NCBI RefSeq assembly: GCF_964355755.1
Contig: NC_092674.1
Coordinates: forward strand, 2,919,001-2,983,000
Length of the DNA stretch: 64,000 nucleotides
Direction: 5' to 3'
Source of the DNA: Antedon mediterranea
Taxonomy: Eukaryota > Echinodermata > Crinoidea > Comatulida > Antedonidae
Of this stretch, positions 191 to 28,400 are shown piece after piece (position 1 is the stretch's first letter; each line of letters starts with the position of its first letter). The position numbers and the translations under genes were made by a program. The notes beneath the pieces are model-generated. The model did not search any database. It was not told the DNA's origin and saw only the letters and a program-made list of their open reading frames with translations.

Positions 191-2138
191 ATTGAAAAAT
201 AATAATTTGAATCATGACACAATGTTTTAGGAATCTTAACCCATCACCATGTCAAATTACTGTATATAAATTTAATAATTCAACTAATTTCCTAAGTAAT
301 AAATAAATGTATGCACAATCTTTGATTTTGTACTACTGCATCTTGTATCTAAAACTAGATATTTTCCTAAAACTCTTCTACAGTGTATTAAATTAATCTC
401 ATTCCCTGATCGCTCTCTCATCATAAGAATAAAGCCATCTGTTCACAATAGTTGCCATTTTAAATTATAAATCTCCTATTTTTCTGCTCAATTTACCATT
501 TTGGTAGAGTAACAATTAAAATACACTATTGATTTTGTAAAACTATCTTTTATTCATCCTAAAATTCTGTGGTTTTACATCATTAATTAGTGTCATTTGG
601 ATATTTTATTGTTCGTGTTATGCAATATTTGGTAAAATTGTTTGTGACGGTCACACTACTAAGAAAAAATTTATCAACTACATGCTAACATCATGTTAAA
701 TGCTATTTGGATATTTAATTTTTCGTTTTATGCAATTCATCTAGTAAAAACTGCCAAATACTAAAATAGGCATTTCACGTCAACTACCGGGCAACTTGTT
801 TTCACAAAGAATAGTTTATTAATATTTCAATATTTAACTTTTTTGTGGTAGAAGCATATTATTAATTAAATTTAGCATTGTAGCATATTAATAACATTAA
901 CTGTAAAGTAATTTATCGGAAACATTACTTGATTTAACAGGCGTAGATTTAGTAATACATTAGTACGCCGCAATAGAAAAGAATGAGCCATGCTGGTAAC
1001 GCATGATTGATTTTTGTTGTTGCTTAAACCTTTCTTTGTGAACTAATTTAGCATGGTGGTAAAATAATTTTTTTTTAACTGAATGTACAATAGTTTGTCA
1101 TTAAATATTTGTTATGAAATGTTATATAATTGCAAAATATATTATCATAATTCTATTTAAGGTGACAGTATAATATCTATTTAAATCAAGTCTTCTTTTG
1201 ATCTGTTTACATCCGCTCGTGTCAGGGCCGGCAGCCCACTTTTAAAGCGATATTAATTTCCAAAATCGCTATCGCTAGGCCTACTTCTCTTCCGATAACT
1301 GTATATCAAAGAACTTTGATGACAAGAATCTCCTGTTCGTCCGAAGTGTGTAACAATTTCGAAAGGCATTGTAGGCCCCTACTCTAGGATAGTCAGAAAG
1401 AAAATCTTTGGATCGAGTAGAGCTAATAGGTGGCGCCATTGTGAGTCATGGAGCAAAGCCATATAATATAATTTAAATTGAAAATTGTCTTTTCAAATTA
1501 TAACTTAAATTTAAATTGTTGAATTGATAAAGAGTTACGGCATTGCGTTCACGGATTTTAGAAAGTCACGTGGTAGGCTACATTACCGGCGATCTTTGTG
1601 TCCCAACCTAGAGTATGGAGTCGAGTCTTTGCTTTAAAAAATGTATAACAATTAACATTATAAAAGGTTTTAAATATCGAATTTAATATCAAAACAATCA
1701 ATTGTTTAAAGGTTTTTGTTAAGATAATAACGCAATTATAAATTTACCGTGAACATGATTTTAAACAACAAAATGTAAAAACAATGCATTACTGTAATAA
1801 TTATTATTATTACAGTATTATTAGACAATCGCTGTACGCGAGCGTGCATGAAGCGCACAGCCGGCCAGAGCAGGCCGTTCCGAAATTCAATGGATTAAAG
1901 CTATTTTTGTTGTTTAAAATCTTTTTCGCTGTAACTTTATAATTTTATTATTATTTTGATATTAAATTCGATACCTAGTTAGCCTTTTGAACGTAGTGAC
2001 AATGTTGCCTTTCTAGTTTGGAGAGGGCGCTGCTTCATGCTTTGAAACCTTTTAACCCGCTACTTTGTGTTATAAAGTTGTAGTACAGTATAAATGTTAC
2101 ATTCTTCGTCTTGCATAGGAAAAATTGAACCAAAAAAC
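191..2138. other. Intergenic sequence upstream of zinc-finger gene 1
   Basis: AT-rich, no coding signal seen. It differs from the sequence upstream of zinc-finger genes 2 and 3 until just before the start codon, where all three share a gaaaa-ttgaac segment directly preceded by atag. That abrupt start of homology after an AG is what a splice acceptor at about 2119 would give, so an unseen 5' non-coding exon is possible. Confidence 0.4.
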
Positions 2139-3863
2139 ATGAAATATAAATGTGAACACTGTGGAGATAAATTTGAGTTAAATGATTTAAAGATGCATTT
2201 ACGAATACATTCATCATCAGATGGACAACAAGAAGGCCTCTACATACGCGATGATTCTCAGTTAATAGGCCTAGAAGAAGACCGGGGATGGGGAATAGAC
2301 AGAGAGCTGAAAGGAGAAGAGACAACGACGTACGAACGTGGAGATTTGAAAGAATCGGAACATTGTGGGAAGATATGTTCGCCTAGGCCTAGCAACAGTT
2401 TAAAAACGCATTTGAGAATACACACAGAAGAGACACCATATGAATGTGAACATTGCGAGAGGAAATTTAAACAAAGTGGTAATTTAAAAACACATTTGAG
2501 AATACACACAGGAGAGACACCATATGAATGTGAACATTGTGGGAAGAAATTTAAACAAAGAGGATATTTGAAAAAACATTTGAGAATACACACAGGAGAG
2601 ACACCATATGAATGTGAACATTGTGGGAAGAAATTTGGAGAAAGTTATAATTTGAAAAGACATTTGAGAATACACACAGGAGGGAGACCATATGAATGTG
2701 AAAATTGTGGGAGCAAATTTAAAGAAAAGGGGGATTTAAAGAGACATTTGAGAATACACACAGGAGAGACGCCATATGAATGTAAACATTGTGGAAAGAA
2801 ATTTAAAGAAAATAGGAGTTTGAAAAACCATTTGAGAATACATACAGGAGAGAGACCATACGAATGTGAACATTGTGGGAAGAAATTTAAAGAAAATGAG
2901 AGTTTGAAAAAACATTTGAAAATACATACAGGAGAGAGACCATATAAATGCGAAAATTGTGGGAAGACATTTTCAGGGGGTAAAAGTTTAAAAAAACATT
3001 TGATAATACACACAGGAGAGACACCATATGTATGTGAATATTGTGGAAAGACATTTAAATGGAATGGGAGTTTGAAAATGCATTTGAGAATACACACAGG
3101 AGAGACACCATATGAATGTGAACATTGTGGAAAGAAATTTAAACAGAGTGGTAGTTTGAAAGCACATTTGAGAATACACACAGGAGAGACACCATATGAA
3201 TGTGAACATTGTGGGCGTATGTTTAAACAGCATGAGTCTTTAAAAAGACATTTAAGAACACACACAGACGATACACTGGAATGTGAACTATGTGGGAAAA
3301 CATTTAAAGAAAACGATAATTTAAAAAGACATATGAGAATACACACAGGAGAGACACCATATGAATGTGAACATTGTGGGAAGAGTTTTAAAGAAAGTGG
3401 GACTTTGAAAAGACATTTGAGAATACACACAGGAGAGACACCATATGAATGTGAACATTGTGGAAAGAAATTTGTAGAAAGTGGGGGTTTAAAAAGACAT
3501 TTGAGAACACATACAGGAGAGACACCATATGAATGTGAACATTGTGGGAAGAAATTTAGTGATAATAGGAGTTTGAACAAACATTTGGGAATACACACAG
3601 GAGAGACACCATATGAATGTGAACATTGTGGGAAGAAATTTAGGGATAAGTATAATTTAAAAAGACATATGAGAATACACACAGGAGAGACACCATATGA
3701 ATGTGAACATTGTGGGAAGAAATTTAAAGATAGTGGGAATTTAAAAACACATTTGAGAATACACACAGGAGAGACACCATACGAATGTGAACATTGTGGA
3801 AAGAAATTTTCAGTGAGAAAAAGTTTAAAAACACATTTGAGAATACATACAGGAGAGACATAG
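2139..3863 (+). CDS. C2H2 zinc-finger protein 1 (19 fingers)
   Basis: Encodes 574 residues, a probable nuclear DNA-binding protein; its target is unknown. Residues 1-24 hold a lone finger with C-x2-C-x11-H-x3-H spacing, one residue short of the usual x12. An acidic spacer of about 50 residues follows, then a degenerate finger whose first Cys is Ser (ESEHCG), then 17 canonical C-x2-C-x12-H-x3-H fingers joined by TGE(T/R)PY linkers. Variation is concentrated at helix positions -1, 2 and 3 (for example QSG, DNR, WNG), as in sequence-specific arrays. No KRAB, SCAN, BTB or ZAD domain is visible. I chose the ATG at 2139 because genes 2 and 3 start at the same residue with an in-frame stop upstream; an in-frame ATG at 2094 would add 15 residues. 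The ORF ends directly after a TGET linker, as in gene 2, and the flank beyond holds finger relics. Confidence 0.85.
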   Translation: MKYKCEHCGDKFELNDLKMHLRIHSSSDGQQEGLYIRDDSQLIGLEEDRGWGIDRELKGEETTTYERGDLKESEHCGKICSPRPSNSLKTHLRIHTEETPYECEHCERKFKQSGNLKTHLRIHTGETPYECEHCGKKFKQRGYLKKHLRIHTGETPYECEHCGKKFGESYNLKRHLRIHTGGRPYECENCGSKFKEKGDLKRHLRIHTGETPYECKHCGKKFKENRSLKNHLRIHTGERPYECEHCGKKFKENESLKKHLKIHTGERPYKCENCGKTFSGGKSLKKHLIIHTGETPYVCEYCGKTFKWNGSLKMHLRIHTGETPYECEHCGKKFKQSGSLKAHLRIHTGETPYECEHCGRMFKQHESLKRHLRTHTDDTLECELCGKTFKENDNLKRHMRIHTGETPYECEHCGKSFKESGTLKRHLRIHTGETPYECEHCGKKFVESGGLKRHLRTHTGETPYECEHCGKKFSDNRSLNKHLGIHTGETPYECEHCGKKFRDKYNLKRHMRIHTGETPYECEHCGKKFKDSGNLKTHLRIHTGETPYECEHCGKKFSVRKSLKTHLRIHTGET

Positions 3864-4492: not shown

Positions 4493-5600
4493 AACGAAAC
4501 CTCTATGTAAAAATCCTGGCTACAGGCTTGGAGGACTCTACCCTAAGGATCGGAGTGAAAGGTCAATCAACAAGAGAAGACACCAACCTCATTCTGTTCA
4601 TTACTTACTAAAACACATTACAAAAGAATAATGCTGAACGTGAGGCATGATTTATTAAGAAGTCTTTAATTAAATTTTATTGAAAAATAGCATTTTTGAA
4701 TGACACAAAGTGTTATTATTATATAACCCATCACTATGTCAAATTATATAATTTAATAATTTCAACTAATTTCCTATACAATTACAGTATATCAATTGGT
4801 ATAGTAATAAATAAATATATGTATAGGCTTTGATCTTGTATTACTGTACTATATTGTATCTGAAACTAGATATTGTTTAACTCTTCTGCAGTGTATTAAA
4901 TTAATTTAAAACATTCAAAAGGTTGATTGATGAAATTAAGGTGCTTAGAGTACCCTGAAAACTGCATGCACTGCACAGCCCTTCTATCATCATAAGAATA
5001 ACCCATCTGTTCACCATGATTACCATTTTAAATTATATAAATTACCTATTTAACTACACAGTTGATAGACGGATTAATCGACTTGATGCATGCACCAAAT
5101 CATAAAAGAAGTGACGCCATTGCGACCAGATAAAAATCGAAAAAAGTCCCCTATTGTTGTATTGTACAAGCTTTGTGGGCGTCAATTAACAGAAGAACGT
5201 CGAATCAAATTATTACTAGTAAATAATGCAGAGAAGGCGTCCCATAACTCAAACACCCAAAGGTCAATTATAACCAATGGTATTACAGTATTATATAGCT
5301 GAAGGCTGGATCAAACTACAATGTTAACGCAGTTAAAAAAGTTATTCTCTGTGAAGAGGGAACTAACAAGATGGTGGCTACAATCGATCAATCAGATATG
5401 CCCTACGCACTACTAATACGCCGCGCCTGTGTGTTAGGCCGGCCGGCCGAGCGTGAGAACGATGAACGCGATCGCGTTGTCGTGGGTGTTGTCGTTTGTG
5501 GCTATGCAGAGCCATATATAGCTATATATGGCTATGGGGGATATCCCCCTCGTCGGGGAGCATATCCCCCTCGTCGGGGAGCATAGCCGAATAGTTTAAC

Positions 5601-7671
5601 ACGGTGGCCCACAACTGTCACGCACACTATAACACAGAATCACACAATTAAAGAAGGAATTACACAATTAAAGAAGGAATCACACAATTAAAGAAGAAAT
5701 CGCACAATTAAAGAAGAAATCGCATATAAACAAAAGAAAGCATGAAAATATAAAACGAAATGCACAAATAAAGAAGAAACGCGCAATTAAAGAAGAGCTA
5801 AGCACAATTAAAGAAGTCCGCAACAAATTCGAAAGCTCCTCGCACAATTAAAGAAGTCCGCAACAAATTCGAAAGCTCCTCGCACAATTAAAGAATTCTG
5901 CAACAAATTCGATCGAAAGTACTTCACACACAATTAAAGTACAGTACCGTAGTCCGTATGGAACGCCATTGCTGCCTCCGGCAGCAAATTTTAATTCTAT
6001 TCGGCTCTTTTACCATTACGTTCGGCTCTTTTAGCATTCGGCGCATTTCTATTCGGCCCATTTACCATTTCGTTCGGCTCTTTCAGCATTCGGCGCATTT
6101 CTATTTGGCCCATTTACCATTACGTTCGGCTCTTTCAGCATTCGGCTCTTTTTTATTCGGCCCATTTACCATTACGTTCGGCTCTTTTTAATTCGGCCCT
6201 TTTTTATTCGGCTCTTTCTGTATTACGTTCGGCTCTTTTTGATTTGGCCCTTTTTTATACGGCGCAATTCAATTCTAACCTTTTACATGGGATCAAATGG
6301 AAGAAAATCAACGGCTGGAAATGAGTCTATGAAAAGTTTACAAAACATATAGATGCAGCATGTAGATTGTTGGTTGAATTAAATGAATTTGAAGGCTATT
6401 TCAATATAACTAATCATTTTATTGACATGATTAATGTGTTAGTTAGAGAACTTGCAATTGTCCAACCTTATTGACCATTTTGAGAGAGAAAAGGTTTGAT
6501 TCATGGCCTAGGCTAGCTAGGCCTAGCCTAGTGTCAGCCTAACATTTAATAATAATAATTTACCCTTTCTCTCTAAAAATTTGTTAAAAGATGAATTAAT
6601 TTTAGGTTATTCAACACATCTTTAATCGGTTGGCTACTCATGGTTGGCGCCATGATGATCAAATGTTTGTAAACTTTTCATAGACTCATTTCCAGTCATT
6701 GATTTTCTTCCATTTGACCCCATGTCAAAGGTTAGATTTTAATTGCGCCATATAAAAAATGCCGATTTAAAAAGAGCCCAACGTAATGCAGAAAGAGCCG
6801 AATAAAAAAGGGCCGAATCAAAAAGAGCCGAACGTAATGTTAAATGGGCCGAATAAAAAAGAGCCGAATGCTGAAAGAGCCGAATGTAATGGTAAATGGG
6901 CCGAATAAAAATGCGCCGAATGCTGAAAGAGCCGAACGAAATGGTAAATGGGCCGAATAGAAATGCGCCGAATGCTGAAAGAGCCGAACGTAATGGTAAA
7001 AAGGCCGAATAGAAATGCGCCGAATGGTAAAAGAGCCGAACGTAATGGTAAAAGAGCTGAATAGAATTAGAGTTTGCTGCCGGAGGCAGCGATGGCGTTC
7101 CATACGGACTACGGTACTTTAATTGTGCGAGGTAGGGCCACAATGGAAATAAGTTTGACCTTTGGTTACTTTTTTGTGTTACCCTGAATTCATTCTTTGT
7201 ATTTTTTTTTATGTTGTGTTATTTTATGAATTCGAATAAAGAAAAAAAAAAGTACTTTCGAATTTGTTGCGGACTTCTTTAATTGTGTGAGGAGCTTTCG
7301 AATTTGTTGCGAACTTCTTTAATTGTGCGAGGTACTTTCGAATTTGTTGCGGACTTCTTTAATTGTGCGAGGAGCTTTTGATTTTGTTGCGAACTTCTTT
7401 AATTGTGGGAGGAGCTTTCGAATTTGTTGCGGACTTCTTTAATTGTGCGAGGAGCTTTCGAATTTGCTGCGGACTTCTTTAATTGTGCTTAGCTCTTCTT
7501 TAATTGCGCGTTTCTTCTTTATTTGTGCATTTCGTTTTATATTTTCATGCTTTCTTTTGTTTATATGCGATTCCTTCTTTAATTGTGTGATTTCTTCTTT
7601 AATTGTGTGATTTCTTCTTTAATTGTGTGAATATGATTTATATAGTGTGCGTGACAGTTGTGGGCCACCGT
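5601..7671. mobile_element. Foldback element FB1 (2.07 kb)
   Basis: The ends are perfect 31-bp inverted repeats (5601-5631 and 7641-7671, starting acggtggcccac). Inside each arm are tandem cacaattaaagaag units, then tandem cattcggctcttt / aaagagccgaa units, then a further inverted pair at about 6285-6345 and 6670-6730, leaving a loop of about 325 bp. No transposase ORF is seen, so it is non-autonomous. The paralogous site after gene 2 (about 14050) lacks the element and reads straight through, which fixes the insertion point. No target duplication is evident. Internal open frames (5958-6191, 6739-7143) are artefacts of the subrepeats. Confidence 0.85.
7135..7250 (+). mobile_element. Short retroposon 3' tail nested in FB1
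   Basis: About 115 bp ending in gaattcgaataaag followed by an A-run interrupts the right arm of FB1; the left arm has no counterpart. A polyadenylation-like word plus A tail suggests a 5'-truncated LINE or SINE copy inserted after the foldback arm formed. Family not identified. Confidence 0.5.
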
Positions 7672-9300
7672 AGGGGCCGCCTGCCTGCCCCATTGCGCTT
7701 TACGCGTGATATGTTCCACCCAGGGACCAGAATGTGACTGTAGTTTCCAAACGAAGTTTACCGAAGCGTTACTTCGTGTACTGTGTATCGACGTACACTA
7801 TACAGGAACAGGGTACGAATTGTGTTCGCGATTTGTTCGTATGTTCAATTTTGTAATTTACGATTAACCCTCTGTCTACCTGAAATAGACGTTTTACTGT
7901 AGGCTCGCCTAAATTAATAAACAAAAAACATGCCATTTTCGTTTAGCCAACATCTTATTATAGCTAAGTTATTTACATTTCCAATGTCCTGTAGTGTCAT
8001 GAATTGCTCATCGTACATCGAAACTGCTCATCGTACATCGAAAAAGTATCAGATTAACATCTGGGAAATAAACTGATTTGCACGACAGAAATGGTCTACG
8101 CTTGCGGACGCATTCCTCTCAAAATAAAAGGTAAAAAGGGTCTGAATTGTTTAAAGTATAGAGTGTAATTTTTTGAAGACCTGCAGCTCTATATATTTCA
8201 AAATTGTTTTAGCTCAACCGCCAATTATATAGAGCTGGTCATGGATACTTACATTTCGTTTCATAGTTCGATGTACAATATACAGTCAGTCAGTGCATTG
8301 TCTGGGAACCAGAGCTCTATTTTTTTTCAATTATTTTTTTTATATCCATGGTTGGTAGGGCTGGTTCTGGAGAGGTACCGGTATATATTTTGTTTTATGA
8401 TTCGAAGTATAATAAGTTAAATTTCCGGGACCTAGCAACTCTATTTTTCAAAATGTTCTTCTAGCTCCACCCCAACCATGGTGGACTGGATCTATAATTT
8501 CGTTTCATATTTCAATGTTTTTCAGGGACCTAGCAGCTCTATTTTTGACAATTAGTCTTAGCTCCACCCAACCATCCATGGCGGGCTAGCTCTGTAGACT
8601 TATAATTTCGTTTCATTTATCAATATGGGCCTATATAAGGGCAATTTGCAGGTACCTAGCAGGTCTAAAATGTTCTAACAGATCAGTCCATGGGTGTTAG
8701 TCTCGCGCATTTACAATTTTCGCACCCTCAGCAGATAGCAACCTGCCTACGCTTCTGCGATTATAACGATATACCTTTTGGCCCGTGGGTAGGTTTTTAC
8801 GTTCGCGTATATTTTTTATGATAAGCATATTGAACTTGAAAAACTTCATTTTTAAAATTGAAAGAATGGATTTACACCACCGTCATCGTATCGTAGCACC
8901 GGTGGAGCAGAGTGATATCATGGAGGAATATTTCCTCCATGGAGGAATATTTCCTCCATGGTGATATAAAATAGAAATAAGTCACTGAATTTTAATATCT
9001 TTTCGTATGTTAATACACTGTGCTCACGTGGACCCAATTTGGCGCGCGCCAGTGAGCACAGTGAAATAAAATAGAAAAAGTCACTAAATTTGAATATCGT
9101 TTCGTATGTTAATACACTGTGCTCAAGTGGACCCAATTTGACACCAGGGGAGCACAGGGAAATAATAGTCACATACAAAAACATCGAGAAAAAATACTTC
9201 TAGAATTAAAAAATATTTAAAACTTGGTATATGTTCAATATCGGTTACTCCATCCGTAAATCAAAAGAAAAATTTGTTCGAGATTACTGCTCTGAATATA
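7672..9300 (+). repeat. Zinc-finger array spacer, blocks A-F
   Basis: No gene seen. Blocks in order: A 7672-7880, B 7880-8080, C 8090-8720 (degenerate tandem units of roughly 100-130 bp around gacctagcagctctattttt and agctccaccca), D 8720-8900, E 8900-9190 (units of the 97-bp repeat also at 44165-45290) and F 9190-9300, followed by gene 2. A shortened version (A, part of C, E, F) lies between genes 2 and 3, and an inverted version at 42450-45290. A duplicated palindrome catggaggaatatttcctcc sits at 8918-8960. Confidence 0.75.
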
Positions 9301-9512
9301 CCTCCTGTTGGAATCACTTTTTCGTCTGGAGTACGCCCTCTAGCCTTCGGCTTTACCTCACTGTTAGTTTAGTCATAATGATGCATGCAGCAGACGTGTT
9401 TTTTTAGAGCAGCAAGATGTAAAATTGTAATAACACAACGCGGCCTGACTCCATCTTTCATAATACAGGTACTGTGCTGTAACTAATAGGAAAATTTGAA
9501 CAAAAAACCAAC

Positions 9513-12272
9513 ATGAAATATAAATGTGAACACTGTGGAGATAAATTTGAGTTAAATGATTTGAAGATACATTTACGAATACATACATCATCCGATAGAC
9601 ATCATGAAGAAGGCCTAGACCTATACATATACGATGATGATTCTGAGTTAGGCCTAGTTGTAGAAGATCGGGGATTAGGAATCGACAGAGAGCTGAAAGA
9701 AGAACAGACAACGTACGAACGTGAAGATTTGAAAGAGGAGTCATATGAATGTAAACATTGTGGGAAGAAATTTAAATCGAATGGGAATTTGAAAGCACAT
9801 TTGAGAATTCACACAGGAGAGAGACCATACGAATGTGAACATTGTGGAAAGAAATTTAAACAAAATGGTAGTTTGAAGATACATCTGAGAATACATACAG
9901 GAGAGAGACCATTTGAATGTACACATTGTGGAAAGAAATTTAAAGAGGGTTGGAGTTTAAAATCACATTTGAGAATACACACAAGAGAGACACCATATGA
10001 ATGTGAACATTGTGGGAAGAAGTTTTCACATAGTAATGGTTTAAGAATACATTTGAGAATACACACAGGAGAAATTTCACCATATCCTTATGAATGTGAG
10101 CATTGTGGAAAGAAATTTAGAGAAACTAGGAATTGGAAAACACATTTGAGAATACACACAGGAGAGACACCATATGAATGTGAACATTGTGGAAAAAAAT
10201 TTAGAGGAAGTAGGAACTTAAAAACACATATAAAAATACACACAGGAGACAGACCATATGAATGTGAACATTGTGGCAAAACATTTACAGAAAATTCTAA
10301 ATTGAATAAACATTTGAAAATACACACAGTAGAGACACCATATCAATGTGAAAATTGTGGGAAAGGTTTTAAAGAAAATTATAAATTGAAAACACATTTG
10401 AGAATACACACAGCAGAGACACCATACGAGTGTGAACATTGTGGAAAGAAATTTAAACAAAAGGAATATTTTAAACAACATTTGAGAATTCACACAGGAG
10501 AGACACCATATGAATGTGAACATTGCGGAAAGAAATTTATAAAGGGTGGGAGTTTGAAAACACATTTGAGAATACACACAGGAGAGACACCATACGAATG
10601 TGAACATTGTGGAAAGAAATTTAAATGGAATGGGAATTTAAAAACACATTTGAGAATACATACAGGAGAGAGACCATATGTATGTGAACATTGTGGGAAG
10701 AATTTTTCACATAGTAACAATTTAAAAACACATTTGAGAATACATACAGGAGAGACACCATATGAATGTGAACATTGTGAGAAGAAATTTAAACAAAGTA
10801 GGGATTTGAAAACGCATTTGAGAATACACACAGGAGAGACACCATATGAATGTGAACATAGTGGAAAGAAATTTGAAGAGGGTAGGCATTTAAAAAGACA
10901 TTTGAAAATACACACAGGAGAGAGAACATATGAATGTGAACATTGTGGGAAGAAATTTAAAGAAAGTGGGAATTTGAAAAGACATTTGAGAATACACACA
11001 GGAGAGAGACCATATGAATGTGAACATTGTGGAAAGACATTTAAACAAAGTGGGAGTTTGAAAACACATTTGAGAATACACACAGGAGAGACACCATATG
11101 AATGTGAACATTGTGGAAAGAAATTTAAACAAAGTGGGGAATTGAAAACACATTTTAGAATACATACAGGAGAGAGACCATATGTATGTGAACAATGTGG
11201 GAATAATTTTTCACATAGTAACAATTTAAAAACACATTTGAGAATACATACGGGAGAGACACCATATAAATGTGAACATTGTGGGAAGAATTTTTCACAT
11301 AGTAGCAGTTTAAAAACACATTTGAGAATACATACGGGAGAGAGACCATATGAATGTGAACATTGTGGGAAGAATTTTTCACGTAATAACAGTTTAAAAA
11401 CACATTTGAGAATACATACGGGAGAGACACCATATCAATGTGAACATTGTGGGAAGAAATTTTCAGAAAGTAAAAGTTTAAAAGCACACTTGAGAATACA
11501 CACAGGAGAAACACAACATGTATGTGAACATTGTGGAAAGACCTTTGAAGAGAGTTGGAATTTAAAAATACATTTAAGAATACATACAGGAGAGAGACCA
11601 TATGAATGTGAACATTGTGGAAAGAAATTTAAACAAAGTTGGGATTTGAAAACGCATTTGAGAATACATACAGGAGAGAGACCATATGCATGTGAACATT
11701 GTGGGAAGAATTTTTCACATAGTAAAAGTTTAAAAATACATTTGAGAATACATACAGGAGAGACACCATATGAATGTGAACTTTGTGGGAAGACATTTAA
11801 ACAGAATGGACAGTTGAAAATACATTTGAGAATACACACAGGAGAGACACCATATGAATGTGAACATTGTGAAAAGAAATTTAAAGATTGTGGGACTTTG
11901 AAAAGACATTTGAGAGTACACACAGGAGAGACACCATATCAATGTGAACATTGTGGGAAGAAATATCAGCAAAGTGGGGATTTAACAAGACATTTGAGAA
12001 TACACACAGGAGAGACACCATATGAATGTGAACATTGTGGGAAGAAATTTAGGGAAAAGTATGATTTAAAAAGACATATGAGAATACACACAGGAGAGAC
12101 ACCATATGAATGTGAACATTGTGGGAAGAAATTTAAAGATAGTGGGAATTTAAAAACACATTTGAGAATACACACAGGAGAGACACTATACGAATGTGAA
12201 CATTGTGGAAAGAAATTTTCAGTGAGAAAAAGTTTAAAAACACATTTGAGAATACATACAGGAGAGACATAG
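9513..12272 (+). CDS. C2H2 zinc-finger protein 2 (31 fingers)
   Basis: Encodes 919 residues. The ATG at 9513 is preceded by an in-frame TAA 33 bases upstream, fixing the start within this exon. Architecture as in gene 1: lone N-terminal finger with x11 spacing, acidic spacer of about 60 residues (runs such as DDDSELGL and KEEQTTYERED), then 30 fingers with TGE(T/R)PY linkers. Finger 6 is preceded by a lengthened TGEISPYP linker that gene 3 shares. Finger 15 has Ser for its second Cys (CEHSG), so it probably does not bind zinc. Several fingers share the helix HSNN or near variants. Its last three fingers nearly repeat those of gene 1, then TGET and stop. A nuclear DNA-binding role is inferred from family; no effector domain or target is visible. 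Confidence 0.87.
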   Translation: MKYKCEHCGDKFELNDLKIHLRIHTSSDRHHEEGLDLYIYDDDSELGLVVEDRGLGIDRELKEEQTTYEREDLKEESYECKHCGKKFKSNGNLKAHLRIHTGERPYECEHCGKKFKQNGSLKIHLRIHTGERPFECTHCGKKFKEGWSLKSHLRIHTRETPYECEHCGKKFSHSNGLRIHLRIHTGEISPYPYECEHCGKKFRETRNWKTHLRIHTGETPYECEHCGKKFRGSRNLKTHIKIHTGDRPYECEHCGKTFTENSKLNKHLKIHTVETPYQCENCGKGFKENYKLKTHLRIHTAETPYECEHCGKKFKQKEYFKQHLRIHTGETPYECEHCGKKFIKGGSLKTHLRIHTGETPYECEHCGKKFKWNGNLKTHLRIHTGERPYVCEHCGKNFSHSNNLKTHLRIHTGETPYECEHCEKKFKQSRDLKTHLRIHTGETPYECEHSGKKFEEGRHLKRHLKIHTGERTYECEHCGKKFKESGNLKRHLRIHTGERPYECEHCGKTFKQSGSLKTHLRIHTGETPYECEHCGKKFKQSGELKTHFRIHTGERPYVCEQCGNNFSHSNNLKTHLRIHTGETPYKCEHCGKNFSHSSSLKTHLRIHTGERPYECEHCGKNFSRNNSLKTHLRIHTGETPYQCEHCGKKFSESKSLKAHLRIHTGETQHVCEHCGKTFEESWNLKIHLRIHTGERPYECEHCGKKFKQSWDLKTHLRIHTGERPYACEHCGKNFSHSKSLKIHLRIHTGETPYECELCGKTFKQNGQLKIHLRIHTGETPYECEHCEKKFKDCGTLKRHLRVHTGETPYQCEHCGKKYQQSGDLTRHLRIHTGETPYECEHCGKKFREKYDLKRHMRIHTGETPYECEHCGKKFKDSGNLKTHLRIHTGETLYECEHCGKKFSVRKSLKTHLRIHTGET

Positions 12273-14055: not shown

Positions 14056-15318
14056 TTGGGTCTGTCCGCCCCATTGCGGTTTACGCGTGATATCATGTTC
14101 CATCCAGGGACCAGAATGTGACTGTAGTTTCCAAACGAAGTTTACCGAAGCGTTACTTTGTGTACTGTGTATCGACGTACACTATACAGAAATTATTTTT
14201 TTTATATCCATGGTAGGGCTGGTTCTGGAGACGTACCGGTATAAATTTTGTTTTATAATTCGAAGTATAATAAGTTAAATTTCCGGGACCTAGCAACTCT
14301 ATTTTTCAAAATGTTCTTAAAGCAAAAAATACTTAAATTGTCTGTCAGACCATGGAGGTATAATACCTCCATGGTCAGACAATGGTTTTTGAGTTATAAT
14401 AAAAAGTTTCTTTTCTCTTAGTTATTTATATCCATTTACAGATGATCGTGCATTTGAAACAAGTGACTGTGTTTACAGCTGATTTCTATTTTCTTCTATT
14501 TTCAAAAAAATCTGAAAGCGGTATTTCCTTATTTTGTTCAACTTCAATTACCTGATGACCTTGATCTTGTACAGGTGAACGCATGCAACTGAATACCCTC
14601 TACAGACAACGTGACTTCTTCAAGTTGGCACAAGTGGAAATTCTTCCACAATCTGTTGATTGGCGTCAACCAATAAAAGGGCAAGAATCCAAAATCGTTC
14701 AACCGTGAGCACTCATATACTCTTTTCCAGACGTTTTTTGGATGCAACAGCTGGACCTATAAATTATAGTGGATGATCCTTTTTCACATTTATGTAACTC
14801 TCTCAGTACTAAACTTGCTGCAGCTTTATATCTGATTGCGTCATCTCTTGTGACATAGCGGGCTAGAGCAGCAGCGTGAAAAAAGTCACTAAATTTGAAT
14901 ATCTTTTCGCAAGTGGACCCAATTTGACACCAGGGGAGCACAGGGAAATAATAGTCACATACAAAAACATCGAGAAAAATTACTTCTAGAATTAAAAAAT
15001 ATTTCAAACTTGGTAAGTTGGTATATGTTCAATATATCGGTTACTCCATCCGTAAAGTCAAAAGAAAAATTTGTTCCGAGATTACTGCTCTGAATATACC
15101 TCCTGTTGGAATCACTTTTTCGTCTGGAGTACGCCCTCTAGCCTTCGGCTTTACCTCACTGTTAGTTTAGTCATAATGCATGATATGCAGCAGACGTGTT
15201 TTTTAGAGCAGCAAGATGTAAAATTGTAATATGATAACACAACGCGGCCTGACTCCATCTTTCATAATACAGGTACTCTGTGCTGTAACTAATAGGAAAA
15301 TTTGAACAAAAAACCAAC
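14056..15318 (+). repeat. Shortened spacer between zinc-finger genes 2 and 3
   Basis: Block A (to about 14190) jumps directly into part of block C, a loss of about 500 bp compared with 7800-8330. Then follow a dispersed repeat (14310-14880), a fragment of block E and block F, and the 5' region of gene 3, which matches that of gene 2. A perfect palindrome built on accatggaggtat lies near 14350-14377. Confidence 0.7.
14560..14880 (-). repeat. Dispersed repeat R1, copy 1
   Basis: Contains the reverse complements of gctgctctagcccgctac, gcagcagttatag-like and acccaaaaaacgtct-like words found at 29080-29265 (+) and 52165-52480 (+). Three copies in one window mark an interspersed element. No ORF of its own is recognisable. 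Confidence 0.65.
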
Positions 15319-17997
15319 ATGAAATATAAATGTGAACACTGTGGAGATAAATTTGAGTTAAATGATTTGAAGATACATTTACGAATACATACATCATCCG
15401 ATAGACATCATGAAGAAGGCCTAGACCTATACATATACGATGATGATTCTGAGTTAGGCCTAGAAGATCGGGGATTAGGAATCGACAGAGAGCTGAAAGA
15501 AGAACAGACAACGTACGATCAAGGTGAAGATTTGAAAGAGCTGTCATATGAATGTGAACATTGTGGGAAGAAATTTAAATCGAATGGTAATTTGAAAGCA
15601 CATTTGAGAATTCACACAGGAGAGAGACCATACGAATGTGAACATTGTGGGAAGAAATTTAAACAAAATGGTAGTTTGAAAACACATTTGAGAATACATA
15701 CAGGAGAGAGACCATATGAATGTGAACATTGTGGGAAGAAATTTAAACGGGGTTGGAGTTTGAAATCACATTTGAGAATACACACAGGAGAGACACCATA
15801 TGAATGTGAACATTGTGGGAAAAAATTTTCACAAAGTAACGGTTTAAGAATACATTTGAAAAGACACACAGGAGAAATTTCACCATATCCTTTTGAATGT
15901 GAGCATTGTGGAAAGAAATTTAGAGAAATTAGGAATTGGAGAACACATTTGAGAATACACACAGGAGAGACACCATATGAATGTGAACATTGTGGGAAAA
16001 AATTTAGAGGAAGTAGGAACTTAAAAACACATTTAAAAATACACACAGGAGACAGACCATATGAATGTGAACATTGTGGCAAAACATTTACAGAAAATTC
16101 TAAATTGAAAACACATTTGAGAATACACACAGGAGAGACACCATATGAATGTGAACATTGTGGGAAGAAATTTAAACAAAATGAATATTTGAAACAACAT
16201 TTGAGAATACACACAGGAGAGACACCATACGAATGTGAACATTGCGGAAAGAAATTTAATAATGGTGGGAGTTTGAAAATACATTTGAGAATACACACAG
16301 GAGAGACACCATATGAATGTGAACATTGTGGAAAGAAATTTAAGTGGAATGGGACTTTAAAAACACATTTGAGAATACACACAGGAGAGACACCATATGA
16401 ATGTGAACATTGTGGAAAGAAATTTAAGTGGAATGTGACTTTAAAAACACATTTGAGAATACACACAGGAGAGACACCATATGAATGTGAACATTGTGGG
16501 AAAAAATTTAAAGAGGGTAGGAGTTTGAAAAACCATTTGAGAATACATGGGGAGATTCCATATTTATGTGAACATTGTGGGAAGAATTTTTCACATAGTA
16601 ACAATTTAAAAACACATTTGAGAATACATACAGGAGAGACACCATACGAATGTGAACATTGTGGAAAGAAATTTAAGCGGAATGGGAATTTAAAAACACA
16701 TTTGAGAATACACACAGGAGAGACACCATACGAGTGTGAACATTGTGGAAAAAAATTTAAGCGGAATGGGAATTTAAAAACACATTTGAGAATACACACA
16801 GGAAACACACCATATGAATGTGAATATTGTACGATGAATTTTTCACAAAGTAACGGTTTAAAAACACATTTGAAAATACACACAGGAGAGACGCCATATG
16901 AATGTGAACATTGTGGGAAGACATTTAAACAAAGTGGGAATTTGAAAAAACATTTGAGAATACACACAGGAGAGACACCATATGAATGTGAACATTGTGG
17001 AAAGAAATTTAAACAAAATGAGGAATTGAAAACACATTTGAGAATACATACAGGAGAGAGACCATATGAATGTGAACATTGTGGGAAGAATTTTTCACAT
17101 AGTAACAATTTAAAAACACATTTGAGAATACATACGGGAGAGACACCATATGAATGTGAACATTGTGGGAAGAATTTTTCACATAGTAACAGTTTAAAAA
17201 CACATTTGAGAATACATACGGGAGAGAGACCATATGAATGTGAACATTGTGGGAAGAATTTTTCACATAGTAACAATTTAAAAACACATTTGAGAATACA
17301 TACGGCGGGAGAGACACCATATCAATGTGAACTTTGTGGGAAGAAATTTTCAGAAAGTAAAAGATTAAAAGCACATTTGAGAATACACACAGGAGAAACA
17401 CCACATTTATGTGAACATTGTGGAAAGAACTTTAAAGAGAGTTGGAATTTGAAAAGACATTTGAGAATACATACAGGAGAGAGGCCATATGAATGTGAAC
17501 ATTGTGGAAAGAAATTTAAACAAAGTGGGGATTTGAAAATACATTTGAGAATACATACAGGAGAGAAACCATATGAATGTGAACATTGTGGGAAGAATTT
17601 CTCGCATAGTAAAAGTATAAAAATACATTTGAGAACACACACAGAAGAGACACCATATGAATGTGAACATTGTGGGAAGAAATTTAAACAGGATGGACAG
17701 TTGAAAATACATTTGAGAATACACACCGGAGAGACACCATATGAATGTGAACATTGTGAAAAGAAATTTAAAGATTGGGGGACTTTGAAAAGACATTTGA
17801 GAGTACACACAGGAGAGACACCATATCAATGTGAACATTGTGGGAAGAAATATCAGCAAAGTGGGGATTTAACAAGACATTTGAGAATACACACAGGAGA
17901 GACACCATATGAATGTGAACATTGTGGGAAGAAATTTAAACGGAATGACTATTTGAACAAACATTTGAGAATACATACAAATATCCTATCAATATGA
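15319..17997 (+). CDS. C2H2 zinc-finger protein 3 (30 fingers)
   Basis: Encodes 892 residues; the start is fixed by the same upstream in-frame stop as in gene 2. Lone x11-spaced N-terminal finger, acidic spacer, then 29 fingers. Fingers 2-8 correspond one to one with gene 2, including the TGEISPYP linker; the middle differs by gain and loss of whole fingers. Fingers 11/12 and 15/16 are recent tandem duplicates, and fingers 14, 20 and 22 share the helix HSNNLKT. Two linkers are altered: HGEIPY (Thr lost) before finger 14, and TAGETPY before finger 23. The protein ends TNILSI where the frame runs into decayed finger sequence, so it lacks the terminal fingers shared by genes 1 and 2. Same inferred role as its paralogues. 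Confidence 0.87.
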   Translation: MKYKCEHCGDKFELNDLKIHLRIHTSSDRHHEEGLDLYIYDDDSELGLEDRGLGIDRELKEEQTTYDQGEDLKELSYECEHCGKKFKSNGNLKAHLRIHTGERPYECEHCGKKFKQNGSLKTHLRIHTGERPYECEHCGKKFKRGWSLKSHLRIHTGETPYECEHCGKKFSQSNGLRIHLKRHTGEISPYPFECEHCGKKFREIRNWRTHLRIHTGETPYECEHCGKKFRGSRNLKTHLKIHTGDRPYECEHCGKTFTENSKLKTHLRIHTGETPYECEHCGKKFKQNEYLKQHLRIHTGETPYECEHCGKKFNNGGSLKIHLRIHTGETPYECEHCGKKFKWNGTLKTHLRIHTGETPYECEHCGKKFKWNVTLKTHLRIHTGETPYECEHCGKKFKEGRSLKNHLRIHGEIPYLCEHCGKNFSHSNNLKTHLRIHTGETPYECEHCGKKFKRNGNLKTHLRIHTGETPYECEHCGKKFKRNGNLKTHLRIHTGNTPYECEYCTMNFSQSNGLKTHLKIHTGETPYECEHCGKTFKQSGNLKKHLRIHTGETPYECEHCGKKFKQNEELKTHLRIHTGERPYECEHCGKNFSHSNNLKTHLRIHTGETPYECEHCGKNFSHSNSLKTHLRIHTGERPYECEHCGKNFSHSNNLKTHLRIHTAGETPYQCELCGKKFSESKRLKAHLRIHTGETPHLCEHCGKNFKESWNLKRHLRIHTGERPYECEHCGKKFKQSGDLKIHLRIHTGEKPYECEHCGKNFSHSKSIKIHLRTHTEETPYECEHCGKKFKQDGQLKIHLRIHTGETPYECEHCEKKFKDWGTLKRHLRVHTGETPYQCEHCGKKYQQSGDLTRHLRIHTGETPYECEHCGKKFKRNDYLNKHLRIHTNILSI

Positions 17998-19446: not shown

Positions 19447-22400
19447 TCAGGATAATAGAGTGTGCACTTGATCTGGTGTTCTAATGATGATACTGTTCGG
19501 ATCAAAGTAACCGTTACTCGAGTCATTCACAGCTCTGTGTATCAGTTCGTATGCTGAACAAATCAAAATAACAGACTTCTTATGGATTTTCTCTCTGTAA
19601 TAATTGAATAGACAAATTAATAGGTACAGTATATAAAAATATTGTAGATAAATATTTTTTGATAAAATTTAAACTCTTGAATATTCATAAACTGCCTGCA
19701 ACTTACCTTAAACTTTGACCTTGAAGCAAGTTGCATTGCGGCATAATGAGACTATCTGGAGAGGCTAGGTAGGAATCAAATTTTGACTGTGAAAAAAAAT
19801 AATTATTTTAAAAATATGTAGCTGTATAGTCTGTTTTAAAACCATTTGTCCATTTCATGGTAGCAAATTCAAACTAATGTACTACCGTACTCTATTTTTA
19901 TATGTTACAATTGTTTAATAAATTACAATTTTTGAACACTACACTAACGTCAGTACATATTACGGTTTTAGTTTAACATAAAATGTTACCATAGCATGTT
20001 TTATGGCTCCTGCTTCCATTCCATGAACTGAAGACAAAGGACCCTAGAATTAAATAAAATGTGTAAGACGAAAATTGTGGTATGGTAGTTACTTTATCTC
20101 ACTTGGTTGATGCTGCTGAGCTACAGTATGCTGTAGATCTGTACAAGACTTACTTTAGCTAATGTGTAAGATGAAGATTGTGTTATGGTAGTTACTGTAC
20201 CTCACTTGGTTGATGCTGCTGAGCTATGCTGTAGATCTGTACAAGACTAAACTTTAGCTAATGTGTAAGATGAAGATTGTGGTATGGTAGTTACTTTATC
20301 TCACTTGGTTGATGCTGCTGAGCTATGCTGTAGATCTGTACAAGACTTACTTTAGCTAATGTGTAAGATGAAGATTGTGGTATGGTAGTTACTGTACCTC
20401 ACTTAAGCCCCTTTCTCACAGATGTGCCTGCAATATTACCGGTATCGTTACCGGCATATACCCATTCTCATCGGACTATCGTGCTGGAAATATAACCGGA
20501 ATATACCGGTTTTCTGTGAGAAAGGAGTCGGGCATATTCGGCCAATAAAAAGTCTCTGACAAAATAATTATTGAGGCCGTCCTTTATTGTTATTATTTTT
20601 GTCTAGCGATATATGGCGGCGAATTATAAGTCAGAGATTATTATCTTCGTTTATAGCATATTTATGCAATACATGCTATGTACAGTATATTGTGCATATA
20701 TTATATAGGTACAGCAATTAATTAGCCGTCATCAGCAATCTGTAAAACACCTTAGAAGGTTGTACAATTTACAAGGCAAGAAGGCGACGAAGGGTCAGGC
20801 ACCAACAAACAAAGAGCTATGAATGGCCTATGTCTATAGATTATGCTACAAATTTCTTCTTGTCCCCTTATTTTAAGCAGCTCTCTTTCTTATCTCACTA
20901 TTCCTCCAGTTCGAAATTATTATTGTTAATTGAATTGAATCGGCGCCAAAGTGATACACTTGACCGCGCAAGGTGTCAAAGCCTCGACGGGTATTAAATA
21001 TAACCCCGGAATATAACGGCGTTACGTTCTCACAGAATGCCCATCTGGCATTGCGGGGAATATCCCTCGAATATTACTAGGTCTAAAGCAGGTCATGTCA
21101 ATGCCGGTATGATGCCGGCATGATGCCAAGACGACCCGTTCTCACAGAAAACCATACCGGCATGGTAATGGTATATTCCCGCAATATTCCTGGCACACAA
21201 CTCTGTGAGAAAGGGACTTTAGTTAATGTTGCTGACCTATGCTGTAGATTTGTACAAGACTTACTTTAGCTAATGTGTAAGATGAAGATTGTTTTATGGT
21301 AGTTACTGTACCTCACTTGGTTGATGCTGCTGAGCTATGCTGTAGATTTGTACCAGACTAACTTTAGCTAATGTGTAAGATGTGTTTTATGCTATATTTG
21401 TTTTTATTGTGTTTTCTTGTTATTATGACGAGCAATGAATTTCCTTTTTGAGGATCAATAAAAGTTATCTTATCTTATCTTAAGATGAAGATTGTGGTAT
21501 GGTAGTTAACTTTACCTCACTTGGTTGATGCTGCTGAGCTATGCTGTAGATTTGTACCAGACTAACTTTAGCTAATGTGTAAGATGCCTGCTCATTTACT
21601 AGTGCATCTGTGTGGGCTTCAATCTAAAAAGAAGAGGAACCAGTTGATTTGTCACTTTCTAAACCACACAAGATTATTTTAGTTTTCTGTATTGGTGCTG
21701 CTTATTTGTTAACTGCTATGCTTAAATCATGAAGGAATTAACAAAATAATTCCTCCATGCTGGAATAAGCATAACATACTGTACAAGTAAAGGTTCAGGT
21801 TGCTGATGGCTTGAGATTTACCAATTGTGACCAAAGGCCAAATGATCTTCTTATTACTGTATTATAGTCCCATTTTGCTTGCTGTGGATTGGTGATTCAG
21901 CAGAATTTAGTGTTGAATAAAGATTGGGAATTGTGAAAAAGAATGAGATTTTTAGTATGTGGCATGAGAGTTTGAGGTTGGGTAAAAATGTGAGTCGCAT
22001 ACCAGATGTGCTAGACTTGGATTTAAGCACTAGTACTTTATTTACCTGAGCATCTAACATCTCAAGTCGCTCGTCTGTGAATTCGTAGAGTGCCAGCGTA
22101 GTCTGAATGGCGTAGATACAGTTTATCATGTACGTAGCCATATCTGCTGTGTTAAGCCTACTAGCTGATACTGCACACATCTGAAGCAGGGGATCTAAGA
22201 TGCACGATAACACCTGTAAGAAAGGTCAAACAGGGGAGAAAGGTCAGACAGGGGTAGAAAGGACAAAATCTATAAATAATTAAACAAAGATAAAAAAATA
22301 CTATAGTGTAGTACTGTGTATATAAATGAATTACTGTACATTCTATCTTAAAATATCATTACTTTGGCAAAGTCTGTTTGTCTCGCATCAATGGGCACCA

Positions 22401-25400
22401 CTGATGAATCATGGGAAGCCAGTACTTCCTGTAACAATGTCAAAGTTTGTGAGAGTGAAGTTGGTGGGCTAAGATCAGCCGGTGGGAGTTCAACCTTTTC
22501 AATGAGCCTTGTCGCATGGACATTGAGGGCGTTGAAGAACACCTTTTGAGAGAACAACTGCATCTCTTCAAGAGTTAGCAACAGGCTGGCTTCACCATCT
22601 AACATCAACCTAATAAGAGATAATAGGAAGAGAAATTTCAAGTCAAAATGGCAAACAACAGTAGTTTGTTTACAAGTGAAGAATCAAAATACTCACGCTA
22701 TTGTGTAGTGGTAGAATTTAATTAGATTATTGAGCTTGTACAAAATTACAGGTCCTGGTTCCGCAACTATTACTTGTTCTACACGAACCTTGAAAAAAAA
22801 AACCCAATAGTTGTCAATCATTAATGGTATTTACAATTAAATTAATTCATTAATTAGTTTTATTATCTTACCTTAAACGGTCTACATACTCCTTCTGTAA
22901 TGTGCCCTAAAATACTCTGAATTTCCTCCTCACGCTCTACAAATATAGAAATAAAAAGCACGGATAAAAACCTTTTTTCCTATAATCATCTATCTTTTAT
23001 ATTGTTCTAACTGGTCCTTTAAATTTCTTTTTCTCTCATAAATTCAATAAAACCTAAAATCTTTGATAGATAAATGATACAATACCACTGTTAGTAGCTA
23101 GCTTCACTAAACTCTGAAGCAATTCTTTCTCTGAAGCTGCTGTTTGATGTAACCATGCCAACATATCACCAGTGTACCGCAATGGATCATGGGAATGAAG
23201 TTCTATAGGTCTTGGAGTACCACCTGGACCTGAGATTTTTAAAAGCAGAATACAAACAAAAATAAAAAATAGCTAATCTATGAATCAACCACAGAAACAA
23301 AAACCTTTGTCTTTATATGGATATGAAGTCCGAAATAGTGAGAAATGAATTAATTACTTGACAGGCTTCCCAATAATAACGGTTTTCTCCTGATATCTCC
23401 GGTCATCTCCCGCTAAAATACAATATCTCTGAATATTTTGGAATTTACAGTTAAGAAAACAAACTAATATTGTTATGTATTGAAACCTTGTTAAAGTACC
23501 TTTGATAAATTTAATATAACAGAGTGCAATATACAGAGTCAAAGGTGTGTTTAAATGTCTTTGGAATACAAGTGACAAGATATACAGTAGTAATATGATT
23601 CTTAAAGCTACAAGGTTAAATGTTAAAGTAACACAGATTATAAATCAAGTAACACTTGTGGCTTATCAGTGCAGTTAGTAAAAGTGTAGTTGGTATATAA
23701 GTAACATGATATTTGATCTTGGTGCCAATCACAGAAATATGATATTTATAACATCAACATGGATTAATAGTGAGATATTGAGTTGGTACCTCATTTGGCA
23801 CAGCACGACATACCAACGTTTAAGATTATAAATGCCAATAATGCTCTATTGTTTAACAGTGCTCTTAATAGTTTGATTTAACTTTCAATATGCTATTATA
23901 GCGCCATCTATAAGAGACATGCTTTCATAAAGCCAAATATTTCATTTTCTTGAGTTAGGACGTTTTTTTTTAGATGGTTAATTGTATTGACATTATTATG
24001 CAAAACAGGAGCCGAAAACGTAAGTAAATGTTTCAGATATTATTATTAAAAAGAATAAAAAAAGTACCTCCTCTGGTTAATGCATCAATGAAACCACGCA
24101 CAACTGCAGTTCTTCTGGCTGTTCCATATTCATCCAATGAATATCTATCAAAATAGAAAATCATGTTGATAGAAATATCATAGAATAATCAAGTGAGGTG
24201 AGGGAAACAATATATAGACCCTATTTTGGGCACTTTTTTTGTCAAACTTGTTTGATAGTGTAGACAGAGATTAATAACTTACTGAAACAAAACTGGTCGA
24301 TCTTGAAGAGCCTGCATAGCTTTAGCAAGAAGGGATGTAACCTCTACAGAATCTGTGGTCATTGCACGACTCTCACCTGCACAGAATCATTCCGTTCAAA
24401 CAAATAAAACAATTGTTGTTTGTACATAATAAATTACTAAGTAAATATACATGCATATTTTATTTATAAATCTAAAGGCAAATTACTGAAAAAGACAATG
24501 ATGTGGGTATCAGTGGCTGGATCATCTCAATGGAGATACAAAAAGACAATGATGTGGGTATCAGTGGCTGGATCTCAATGGAGATACAAAAAGACAATGA
24601 TGTGGGTATCAGTGGCTGGATCTCAATGGAGATACAAAAAGACAATGCTGTGGCTATCAGTGGCTGGATCTCAATGGAGATACAAAAAAAACAATGCTGT
24701 GGCTATCAGTGGCTGGATCTCAATGGAGATACAAAAAGACAATGCTGTGGCTATCAGTGGCTGGATCTCAATGGAGATACAAAATGACAATGCTGTGGGT
24801 ATCAGTGGCTGGATCTCAATGGAGATACAAAAAGACAATGCTGTGGGTATCAGTGGCTGGATCTCAATGGAGATACAAAAAAGACAATGCTGTGGGTATC
24901 AGTGGCTGGATCTCAATGGAGATACAAAAAGACAATGCTGTGGGTATCAGTGGCTGGATCTCAATGGAGATACAAAAAGACAATGCTGTGGGTATCAGTG
25001 GCTGGATCTCAATGGAGATACAAAAAGACAATGCTGTGGTTGTCAGTGGCTGGATCTCAATGGAGATACAAAAAGACAATGCTGTGGGTATCAGTGGCTG
25101 GATCTCAATGGAGATACAAAAAGACAATGCTGTGGGTTTCAGTGGCTGGATCTCAATGGAGATACAAAAAGACAATGATGTGGGTATCAGTGGCTGGATC
25201 TCAATGGAGATACAAAATGACAATGCTGTGGGTATCAGTGGCTGGATCTCAATGGAGATACAAAAAGACAATGCTGTGGGTATCAGTGGCTGGATCTCAA
25301 TGGAGATACAAAAAGACAATGCTGTGGGTATCAGTGGCTGGATCTCAATGGAGATACAAAAAGACAATGCTGTGGGTTTCAGCGGCTGGATCTCAATGGA

Positions 25401-28400
25401 GATACAAAAAGACAATGCTGTGGGTTTCAGCGGCTGGATCTCAATGGAGATACAAAAAGACAATGCTGTGGGTTTCAGCGGCTGGATCTCAATGGAGATA
25501 CAAAAAGACAATGATGTGGGTATCAGTGGCTGGATCTCAATGGAGATACAAAAAGACAATGCTGTGGGTTTCAGTGGCTGGATCTCAATGGAGATACAAA
25601 AAGACAATGATGTGGGTATCAGTGGCTGGATCTCAATGGAGATACAAAAAGACAATGCTGTGGGTATCAGTGGCTGGATCTCAATGGAGATACAAAAACA
25701 CAATGCTGTGGGTATCAGTGGCTGGATCTCAATGGAGATACAAAAAGACAATGCTGTGGTTGTCAGTGGCTGGATCTCAATGGAGATACAAAAAGACAAT
25801 GCTGTGGGTATCAGTGGCTGGATCTCAATGGAGATACAAAAAGACAATGCTGTGGGTTTCAGTGGCTGGATCTCAATGGAGATACAAAAAGACAATGATG
25901 TGGGTATCAGTGGCTGGATCTCAATGGAGATACAAAATGACAATGCTGTGGGTATCAGTGGCTGGATCTCAATGGAGATACAAAAAGACAATGATGTGGG
26001 TATCAGTGGCTGGATCTCAATGGAGATACAAAAAGACAATGCTGTGGGTATCAGTGGCTGGATCTCAATGGAGATACAAAAAGACAATGCTGTGGGTTTC
26101 AGCGGCTGGATCTCAATGGAGATACAAAAAGACAATGCTGTGGGTTTCAGCGGCTGGATCTCAATGGAGATACAAAATGACAATGCTGTGGGTATCAGTG
26201 GCTGGATCTCAATGGAGATACAAAAAGACAATGCTGTGGGTTTCAGCGGCTGGATCTCAATGGAGATACAAAAAGACAATGATGTGGGTATCAGTGGCTG
26301 GATCTCAATGGAGATACAAAAAGACAATGCTGTGGGTTTCAGTGGCTGGATCTCAATGGAGATACAAAAAGACAATGATGTGGGTATCAGTGGCTGGATC
26401 TCAATGGAGATACAAAATGACAATGCTGTGGGTATCAGTGGCTGGATCTCAATGGAGATACAAAATGACAATGCTGTGGGAATCAGTGGCTGGATCTCAG
26501 TGGAGATACAAAAAGACAATGCTGTGGGTGTCAGTGGCTGGATCTCAATGGAGATACAAAAAGACAATGCTGCAAAAAAGCTAAACCAAAACAATAAAGT
26601 AATACAGCCGGAAAAATTAACAACACTAGTCCTTCATATTACATATATATATACTGTACATATTAAATATACAGCAATATACGGTACTGTGTACTGTAAA
26701 TATGTAATACAGTGTTATGCATATTATATGGTAATTATAATAACAACCCCATGTCCACCTGTAAATATAAATATGCATATACAGTACGCATGCATATTAT
26801 ACCATGGTTATAACAACTTTGTTTCCACCTGTAAATATGCATATTATACCATATTTATAATAACACAATGACCACCTGTAAATATGCATACATATGCATA
26901 TTATATCATAATTATAATAACAACCTTGTGTCCACCTGTAAAGACGTTCATACGTTGTCTCCAGATGAAGAGCCATTGCTTCCATAATTTCTAAACTGTG
27001 AAGAAAGAAGGACAAATTTCAAAAACTAATTACTGGACAATAATTCTTGTTTATTTTACATCCCTAACTTACTTATTATGATCACTTTATAAACTAAAAA
27101 ATGTCATAGGTAAGTGACAGAGTGATTGCTGACATACCCTGCTGTCTGTTGATTGGTTCTCAGTAAAATCTTACAGTCCTGGTGAATCTGTTTAACTCGT
27201 AAAAGTGCTTTGAAGAAATCTTCATGTAACCTACCATCTCGAGTTCCTCTTAGAATTTTCAGTTCTTCTGGTTTTAGTTGATATTTAGCGAGGAAACCAT
27301 CTGCGACCTTTGCCCTCATTTCTAACCTCTGACTTTAAAAATAGTTTTGAAAAAGAATTTATATTCAGTAGATTGATTAACATTATTTAAATCCATCATG
27401 TTAATTTATATTTATGAAAAAGTTATGCAAAATTTTCTAGTTATTACAGTTAATTCCAACTTTTTTTTCAAAATAGTCGTAACTGCTGTAGTACCTTTCT
27501 TTCTGCAATTCAGTAGTTTTACTTATAAGGTCAGATGTCTGACCTCTGGCGGCCTTTAACCTCTGTGTCATGTCATTACAGCAGGTGCTCATGGCTGACA
27601 CATCTTCATCAATAGAATCAAGTTGCTGGGAAAGAAGATGATAAAACAATAATGTGGCTCTTCAATTCAATTATAAATTTAAAAATTAATTATAATTTAT
27701 AATTATTTAAATTAAATTTTAGTTGTATAAAAATTAATTTCTTGCCTACCACTTTTACAGCTCGAAATGCTTCTGAAAATTCTTCGTTTATTGTCAAACT
27801 CCTCCGTTCAATATCTCCCCTTAAGTTGCGTCGAGTGCGCAAGTTATTTTCGCTAAAGAAACTTGACATAGCCTTGAGTGCCTCCAAAACATCCTTTAAA
27901 ATAGTTTTGCAGTATTGTCATAGTACTCATACCATCTATGAATTAGTTAACTATTCACATTTAATATATTTAATGCCATTCACGTTACCTAAACTGAAAG
28001 ATATACTCTGTTCCTCTGAACAAATAATTGCTTAACATTTAAATGTCACATAATCACATTTACTTTTCAATAAGCCTGTTTGTAAATTTTACGGTGAAAA
28101 ATTTAAAAACAATTTTGACCCCAACAATACATGCACGTGGATATCACGTTGCCAATGTTCCGTTGCAGGCATCAATACTTCAGTTGGCATGTTTGTATGT
28201 ATGCATTTTTGTTACTGTTGTGTATATTTTAAGGGAGGGGGGGGGGGGTGGGTGTGGATAGAGGTGCTTGTCATCTGTTCATCCTTTTCTTTTTGCTGCC
28301 TTTTTGTTGTTATGTGCAGTGATAAAGTTCAATAAATAAATAAAAAATAATAGTTATTTACTTTGACAAAAATTACCTGAAAAAATGAAAATAGTCAAAT

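Follow-up and report, generated by a model that had tools for sequence, protein, structure and literature searches.

Tandem copies of a COG6 splice junction in an echinoderm genome, a probable neutral mirage

What becomes of a gene when the end of one of its exons, together with the 5' splice site, is repeated several times over in the intron that follows? The question is raised by COG6, a single-copy gene on the minus strand of the window analyzed here (the whole stretch of DNA, 64 kb), where five extra copies of such a segment occupy the intron after the exon at 21623-21516 and the exon itself is the sixth member. Tandem repeats across exon-intron boundaries have been named mirages in amphioxus, where they are described in Adh3, troponin C, the globins BflGb6 and BflGb9, and PGBD5; they are found at either boundary, keep the AG or GT in many copies and differ in copy number between haplotypes, and the Adh3 data together with globin RT-PCR suggest that their host genes are spliced regularly (PMC3087553, PMC3902484). 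We consider it highly probable (about 0.88) that the COG6 array is a neutral mirage, that is, a tandem duplication removed together with its intron.

The host exon and the anatomy of the array

Spliced without the array, the COG6 exons encode a 185-aa C-terminus that matches positions 279-462 of Pfam COG6_C without a gap (E=1e-49), and this match supports the exon model; a search of the PDB by sequence found no relative of the C-terminal part. The features of the locus, with the basis of each in brackets, are:

21516..21623, minus strand: functional COG6 exon, 108 nt, donor GAG/GTAAAG (reading frame and Pfam COG6_C)
21488..21586, minus strand: unit E0, exon part 21586-21516 plus donor and 5' end of the intron (unit alignment)
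~21383..21480, plus strand: 3' end of a retroelement, 98 bp, between E0 and U1, target-site duplication TAAGATG, tail (TTATC)n (genomic matches and target-site duplication)
21285..21382, minus strand: unit U1, 98 bp, donor GAG/GTACAG at 21312/21311 (unit alignment)
21217..21284, minus strand: 5' half of unit U2, with an internal GTAAGT (unit alignment)
20406..21218, no strand assigned: TIR element, 813 bp, target-site duplication TTA, splitting U2 (genomic copies and target-site duplications)
20371..20405, minus strand: 3' half of unit U2, donor GTACAG, first intron base 20397 (unit alignment)
20273..20370, minus strand: unit U3, 98 bp, donor now ATAAAG, internal GTAAGT (unit alignment)
20174..20272, minus strand: unit U4, 99 bp, donor GTACAG (20201/20200), 1-nt insertion (unit alignment)
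20257-20201, minus strand: possible in-frame cassette within U4, 57 nt (frame test)
20071..20173, minus strand: unit U5, 103 bp, donor ATAAAG, 5-nt insertion (unit alignment)
20058..20070, minus strand: terminal partial unit, 13 bp, CGTCTTACACATT, followed by the remaining intron (unit alignment)
19990..20043, minus strand: COG6 exon after the array-bearing intron (reading frame and Pfam COG6_C)

The array starts with the final 71 nt of the exon (71/108 nt, or 66%), and the unit runs on through the 5' splice site into about 27 nt of intron, while the acceptor of the exon is absent from all extra units. U1 and U3-U5 are 96-97% identical to the exon unit, and both halves of U2 are 88-91% identical to it, which excludes chance likeness; no further occurrence of the unit was found in the 354-Mb genome. 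Alignment of the units agrees with the preliminary description as to the place of the array, its minus-strand match to the exon, the real exon as sixth member and the share of about two thirds of the exon. Several copies had also been said to keep a GT donor and all to lack the acceptor; GT is indeed retained in three of the five copy donors (21311, 20397 and 20200), and the other two have AT (20299 and 20097). The count of five extra copies likewise stands, but the uniform unit of 101 bp attributed to them does not, as the copies measure 98, about 104, 98, 99 and 103 bp, followed by the 13-bp partial.

The two insertions date the array relative to the transposons. The 813-bp TIR element, which severs the exonic part of the 3' half of U2 and leaves its donor in place, has 257 first-look candidates genome-wide, with copies that are 88-93% identical and, elsewhere in the genome, flanked by duplications of TTA, TAA or CTA. 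We take these duplications to be the PIF/Harbinger pattern, and on that basis the element is a PIF/Harbinger-like MITE. For the 98-bp retroelement end there are 271 first-look candidates genome-wide. Since both insertions lie inside the array with target-site duplications of their own, the array came first and the transposons later.

The units also differ in ways that bear on their history. The AT donor common to U3 and U5, and the GTACAG common to U2 and U4, suggest that a block of two units was duplicated within the array. Between U1 (21382-21285) and the exon unit (21586-21488) there are no differences over the 71 exonic nt, whereas 4 of 25 intronic columns differ, a contrast for which our own post hoc calculation gives a chance of about 0.004. 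This hints that U1 recently exchanged sequence with the exon, possibly by gene conversion over a tract that stops at the splice site, and constraint on U1 could be an alternative source of the exonic identity. The exonic parts of the exon and U3 differ at three sites, all synonymous, as expected under constraint on the exon; the insertions in U4 and U5 break the frame.

Junction-spanning arrays elsewhere in the genome

A second, unrelated array in COG6 has the same relation to a splice junction:

26716..26943, minus strand: end of the ERLYRWTQ exon, donor AAG/GTTGTT and intron start, with about three extra diverged copies of 47-60 bp each

To this case we can add three from a survey of 60 exon-centered loci, 30 of them myosin-head and 30 kinesin, which by position represent about 31 genes; the three are a myosin family and two kinesins, one with the array at a donor and one at an acceptor. 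For this genome, the earlier view that minisatellites seldom include a live junction is contradicted by the second COG6 array and by the three found at the sampled loci. A further myosin array beside a donor (L031) was rejected as a junction-spanning case, being purely intronic.

In the myosin family, on C3, the unit of 83 bp comprises the last 65 nt of the ...SIFALMNQ exon, a GTAAGT donor and 17 intronic nt; the paralogs carry at that junction one copy, one copy plus the first 27 bp, two, three or eight copies. In three of these paralogs the donor and 17 intronic nt are directly followed by a 27-bp exon copy, equivalent to 1.3 units in all, so that the birth stage of an array is visible in the series; the COG6 array also ends in a partial unit (13 bp). 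Expansion between such short direct repeats (the 27-bp myosin and 13-bp COG6 partials), by slippage or unequal exchange, is a likely route to the full arrays. The paralogs with their one, 1 + 27 bp, two, three and eight copies at a single junction are a ready series for the study of array birth, and could show whether arrays of this kind ever give rise to new exons or introns. Some 20 unconventional myosin genes, closely related to one another, share a single chromosome arm (G000:C3:19.6-25.2 Mb, L044-L058), with 1 to 8 copies of the 83-bp unit at this exon end. Elsewhere among the myosins, two neighboring exons (G000:C1:19159516-19159821) both align to positions 107-152 of the myosin head and are possibly a mutually exclusive pair.

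One kinesin (L059) has a 61-bp duplication, in two copies, that begins four exon bases before the donor. In another (L066:92-1526), a 70-bp unit across the acceptor TTGTAG/GGTTCTGAGAGGCAGTCAAA is present about 20 times, and the last of these copies is the functional one; this array is the acceptor-side counterpart of the COG6 donor array. The working copy is thus the first in the donor arrays and the last in the acceptor array, a rule that fits neutral tolerance because all remaining copies then fall within the intron. Tandem repeats with a period of 20 or more make up 8.0% of the sampled sequence, and set against this cover, three arrays per roughly 90 non-redundant junctions (the junction number being our own estimate) represent no excess at junctions.

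Splice signals and the competing explanations

Donors were scored with a weight matrix built from 12 donors of COG6 itself. The authentic donor of the exon reaches 9.2 bits (7.4 if it is itself excluded from the matrix) and is the top-scoring donor of the six members; the GT copies, at 7.3 bits, fall within the range of authentic COG6 donors, and the AT copies score 3.0 bits. The corresponding energies of pairing with U1 snRNA are -6.9, -5.7 and -0.6 kcal/mol. An internal GTAAGT (8.9 bits) occurs in units U2, U3 and U5 where the exon and unit U1 have GTTAGT (5.9 bits), the change being synonymous. The sole scored acceptor-like site of the unit, TTAG/CTA, reaches -1.6 bits, which is below all 12 authentic COG6 acceptors (-0.7 to 10.3 bits).

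In a frame test, splicing at any downstream donor of the array leads to the same stop, 11 codons past the exon, so the predicted product would lack the last 93 residues, and the mRNA would probably be degraded. The expectation that such splicing would change the C-terminal half of COG6 goes too far, given this one common stop and the only 93 residues that are encoded downstream of the exon.

We infer that COG6 is spliced normally, that the array is neutral, and that it originated by slippage or unequal exchange. On this account, a segment across the 3' end of the exon and its 5' splice site would have been tandemly duplicated into the downstream intron, after which the array would have grown to six units. 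Because the acceptor lies outside the unit, only the first copy would form an exon; under exon definition, the upstream acceptor would pair with the donor that is closest and strongest, and the rest of the array would leave as intron. With all copies removed in this way, the extra ones would be close to neutral, and would be expected to decay (GT to AT, indels) and to accept transposons.

Three copies whose GT donors are still usable, with scores in the authentic range, and three internal GTAAGT sites count against the neutral reading, and they lend some weight to the idea that the copies are decoy 5' splice sites which compete for U1 snRNA or for cross-exon contacts and so tune the level of COG6, by way of less productive splicing or intron retention. 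Such use would lower COG6, since a lengthened exon stops at once. However, the authentic donor is both the strongest and the nearest to the acceptor, GT has been lost in two of the five copies, unrelated genes bear similar arrays with no excess over background, and amphioxus mirages seem to splice normally (PMC3087553), so that we regard a decoy role as improbable. A repeat misassembly that inflated the copy number would have a precedent in one amphioxus mirage that seemed aberrantly assembled in a genome draft (PMC3087553), but it is hardly credible here, where substitutions and indels distinguish the units and the array contains two different transposons, each flanked by target-site duplications of its own.

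It is very unlikely that the array represents an exon or intron gain in progress, in which a unit would serve as a cassette exon through the cryptic acceptor TTAG/CTA. For amphioxus globins, intron gain from such repeats has been put forward (PMC3087553), and potato offers a demonstrated case (PMC4974935); in the frame test the U4 cassette of 57 nt is open and in frame, adding 19 residues. Against this, the cryptic acceptor is weaker than every authentic acceptor, inclusion of unit U1 as a cassette leads to a stop, and the frame of U4 depends on its 1-nt insertion. We see only a slim chance that U4 already acts as a low-level cassette exon that duplicates 19 COG6 residues; if it does, a mirage is here giving rise to a new exon.

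Known systems and other repeats in the window

By its sequence features the COG6 array is a mirage, and regular splicing is predicted from the ranking of its donors and the gap-free protein match. As in amphioxus, the unit spans a boundary of a working gene, the splice signal is kept in some copies (GT in 3/5) and not in all, the functional copy stands at the edge of the array, and both kinds of boundary are hit in this genome (donors in COG6 twice, myosin and the L059 kinesin; an acceptor in the L066 kinesin). Copy number varies between haplotypes in the amphioxus mirages, whereas here the variation is seen among myosin paralogs (1 to 8). Unlike the amphioxus examples, the COG6 array is split by two transposons. 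The host also differs, being an echinoderm where the reported mirages come from cephalochordates, and host group is no part of the definition. The literature that we searched, with incomplete coverage, contained no report of mirages outside cephalochordates.

As to the host genome, its GC content is 34%, and its tektin-4 and tektin-1 exons are closest to PDB 8snb, a structure of the sea urchin sperm axoneme, with 211 and 175 bits against 135 and 136 bits for the next tektins; tektin-3 gave no informative match. A search of the genome for the GFP family gave no match, which does not prove absence. These findings speak against amphioxus, a candidate host because of the mirage literature, and the tektins make an echinoderm likely.

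Internal tandem repeats at exon-intron boundaries, sometimes with novel introns, have also been described in human segmental-duplication genes (De Grassi and Ciccarelli, 2009, PMC2812944). These resemble the present arrays in being of minisatellite size, boundary-spanning and variable among recent paralogs (PMC2812944), but they came to light through transcripts that showed altered splicing and novel introns, while COG6 is single-copy and is probably spliced normally. In potato, a tandem duplication has yielded a gained intron (PMC4974935). Similarly to COG6, and as in the Rogers model, the duplicated segment extends over an exon-intron boundary and includes splice signals; in potato, however, the new intron is spliced (PMC4974935), whereas the COG6 copies sit inside an existing intron. 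Taken together, the five independent cases from this limited sample of an echinoderm genome, under a name that the literature searched uses for amphioxus only, suggest that mirages arise generally as a by-product of genomes rich in minisatellites.

Several other repeats were observed in the window. Another COG6 intron contains an array of 43 copies of a 48-bp unit (24489-26572, 96% matches). As 48 is divisible by 3, several of its frames, on either strand, stay open over about 590-760 codons; the presence of a related unit within a kinesin intron (L069:795-1058) marks the repeat as a dispersed minisatellite. The unit of a 97-bp array with 11 copies (44196-45294) is seemingly common to an ORF-coding stretch at 8918-9199 (minus strand), and seems to be another dispersed minisatellite. 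Short tandem arrays with units of 20, 40 and 52 bp form a large inverted repeat at 5541-7649, centered near 6.5 kb. Additionally, three neighboring C2H2 zinc-finger genes (2094-3863, 9483-12272 and 15289-17997) each amount to little more than a single long ORF made up of 84-bp finger repeats.
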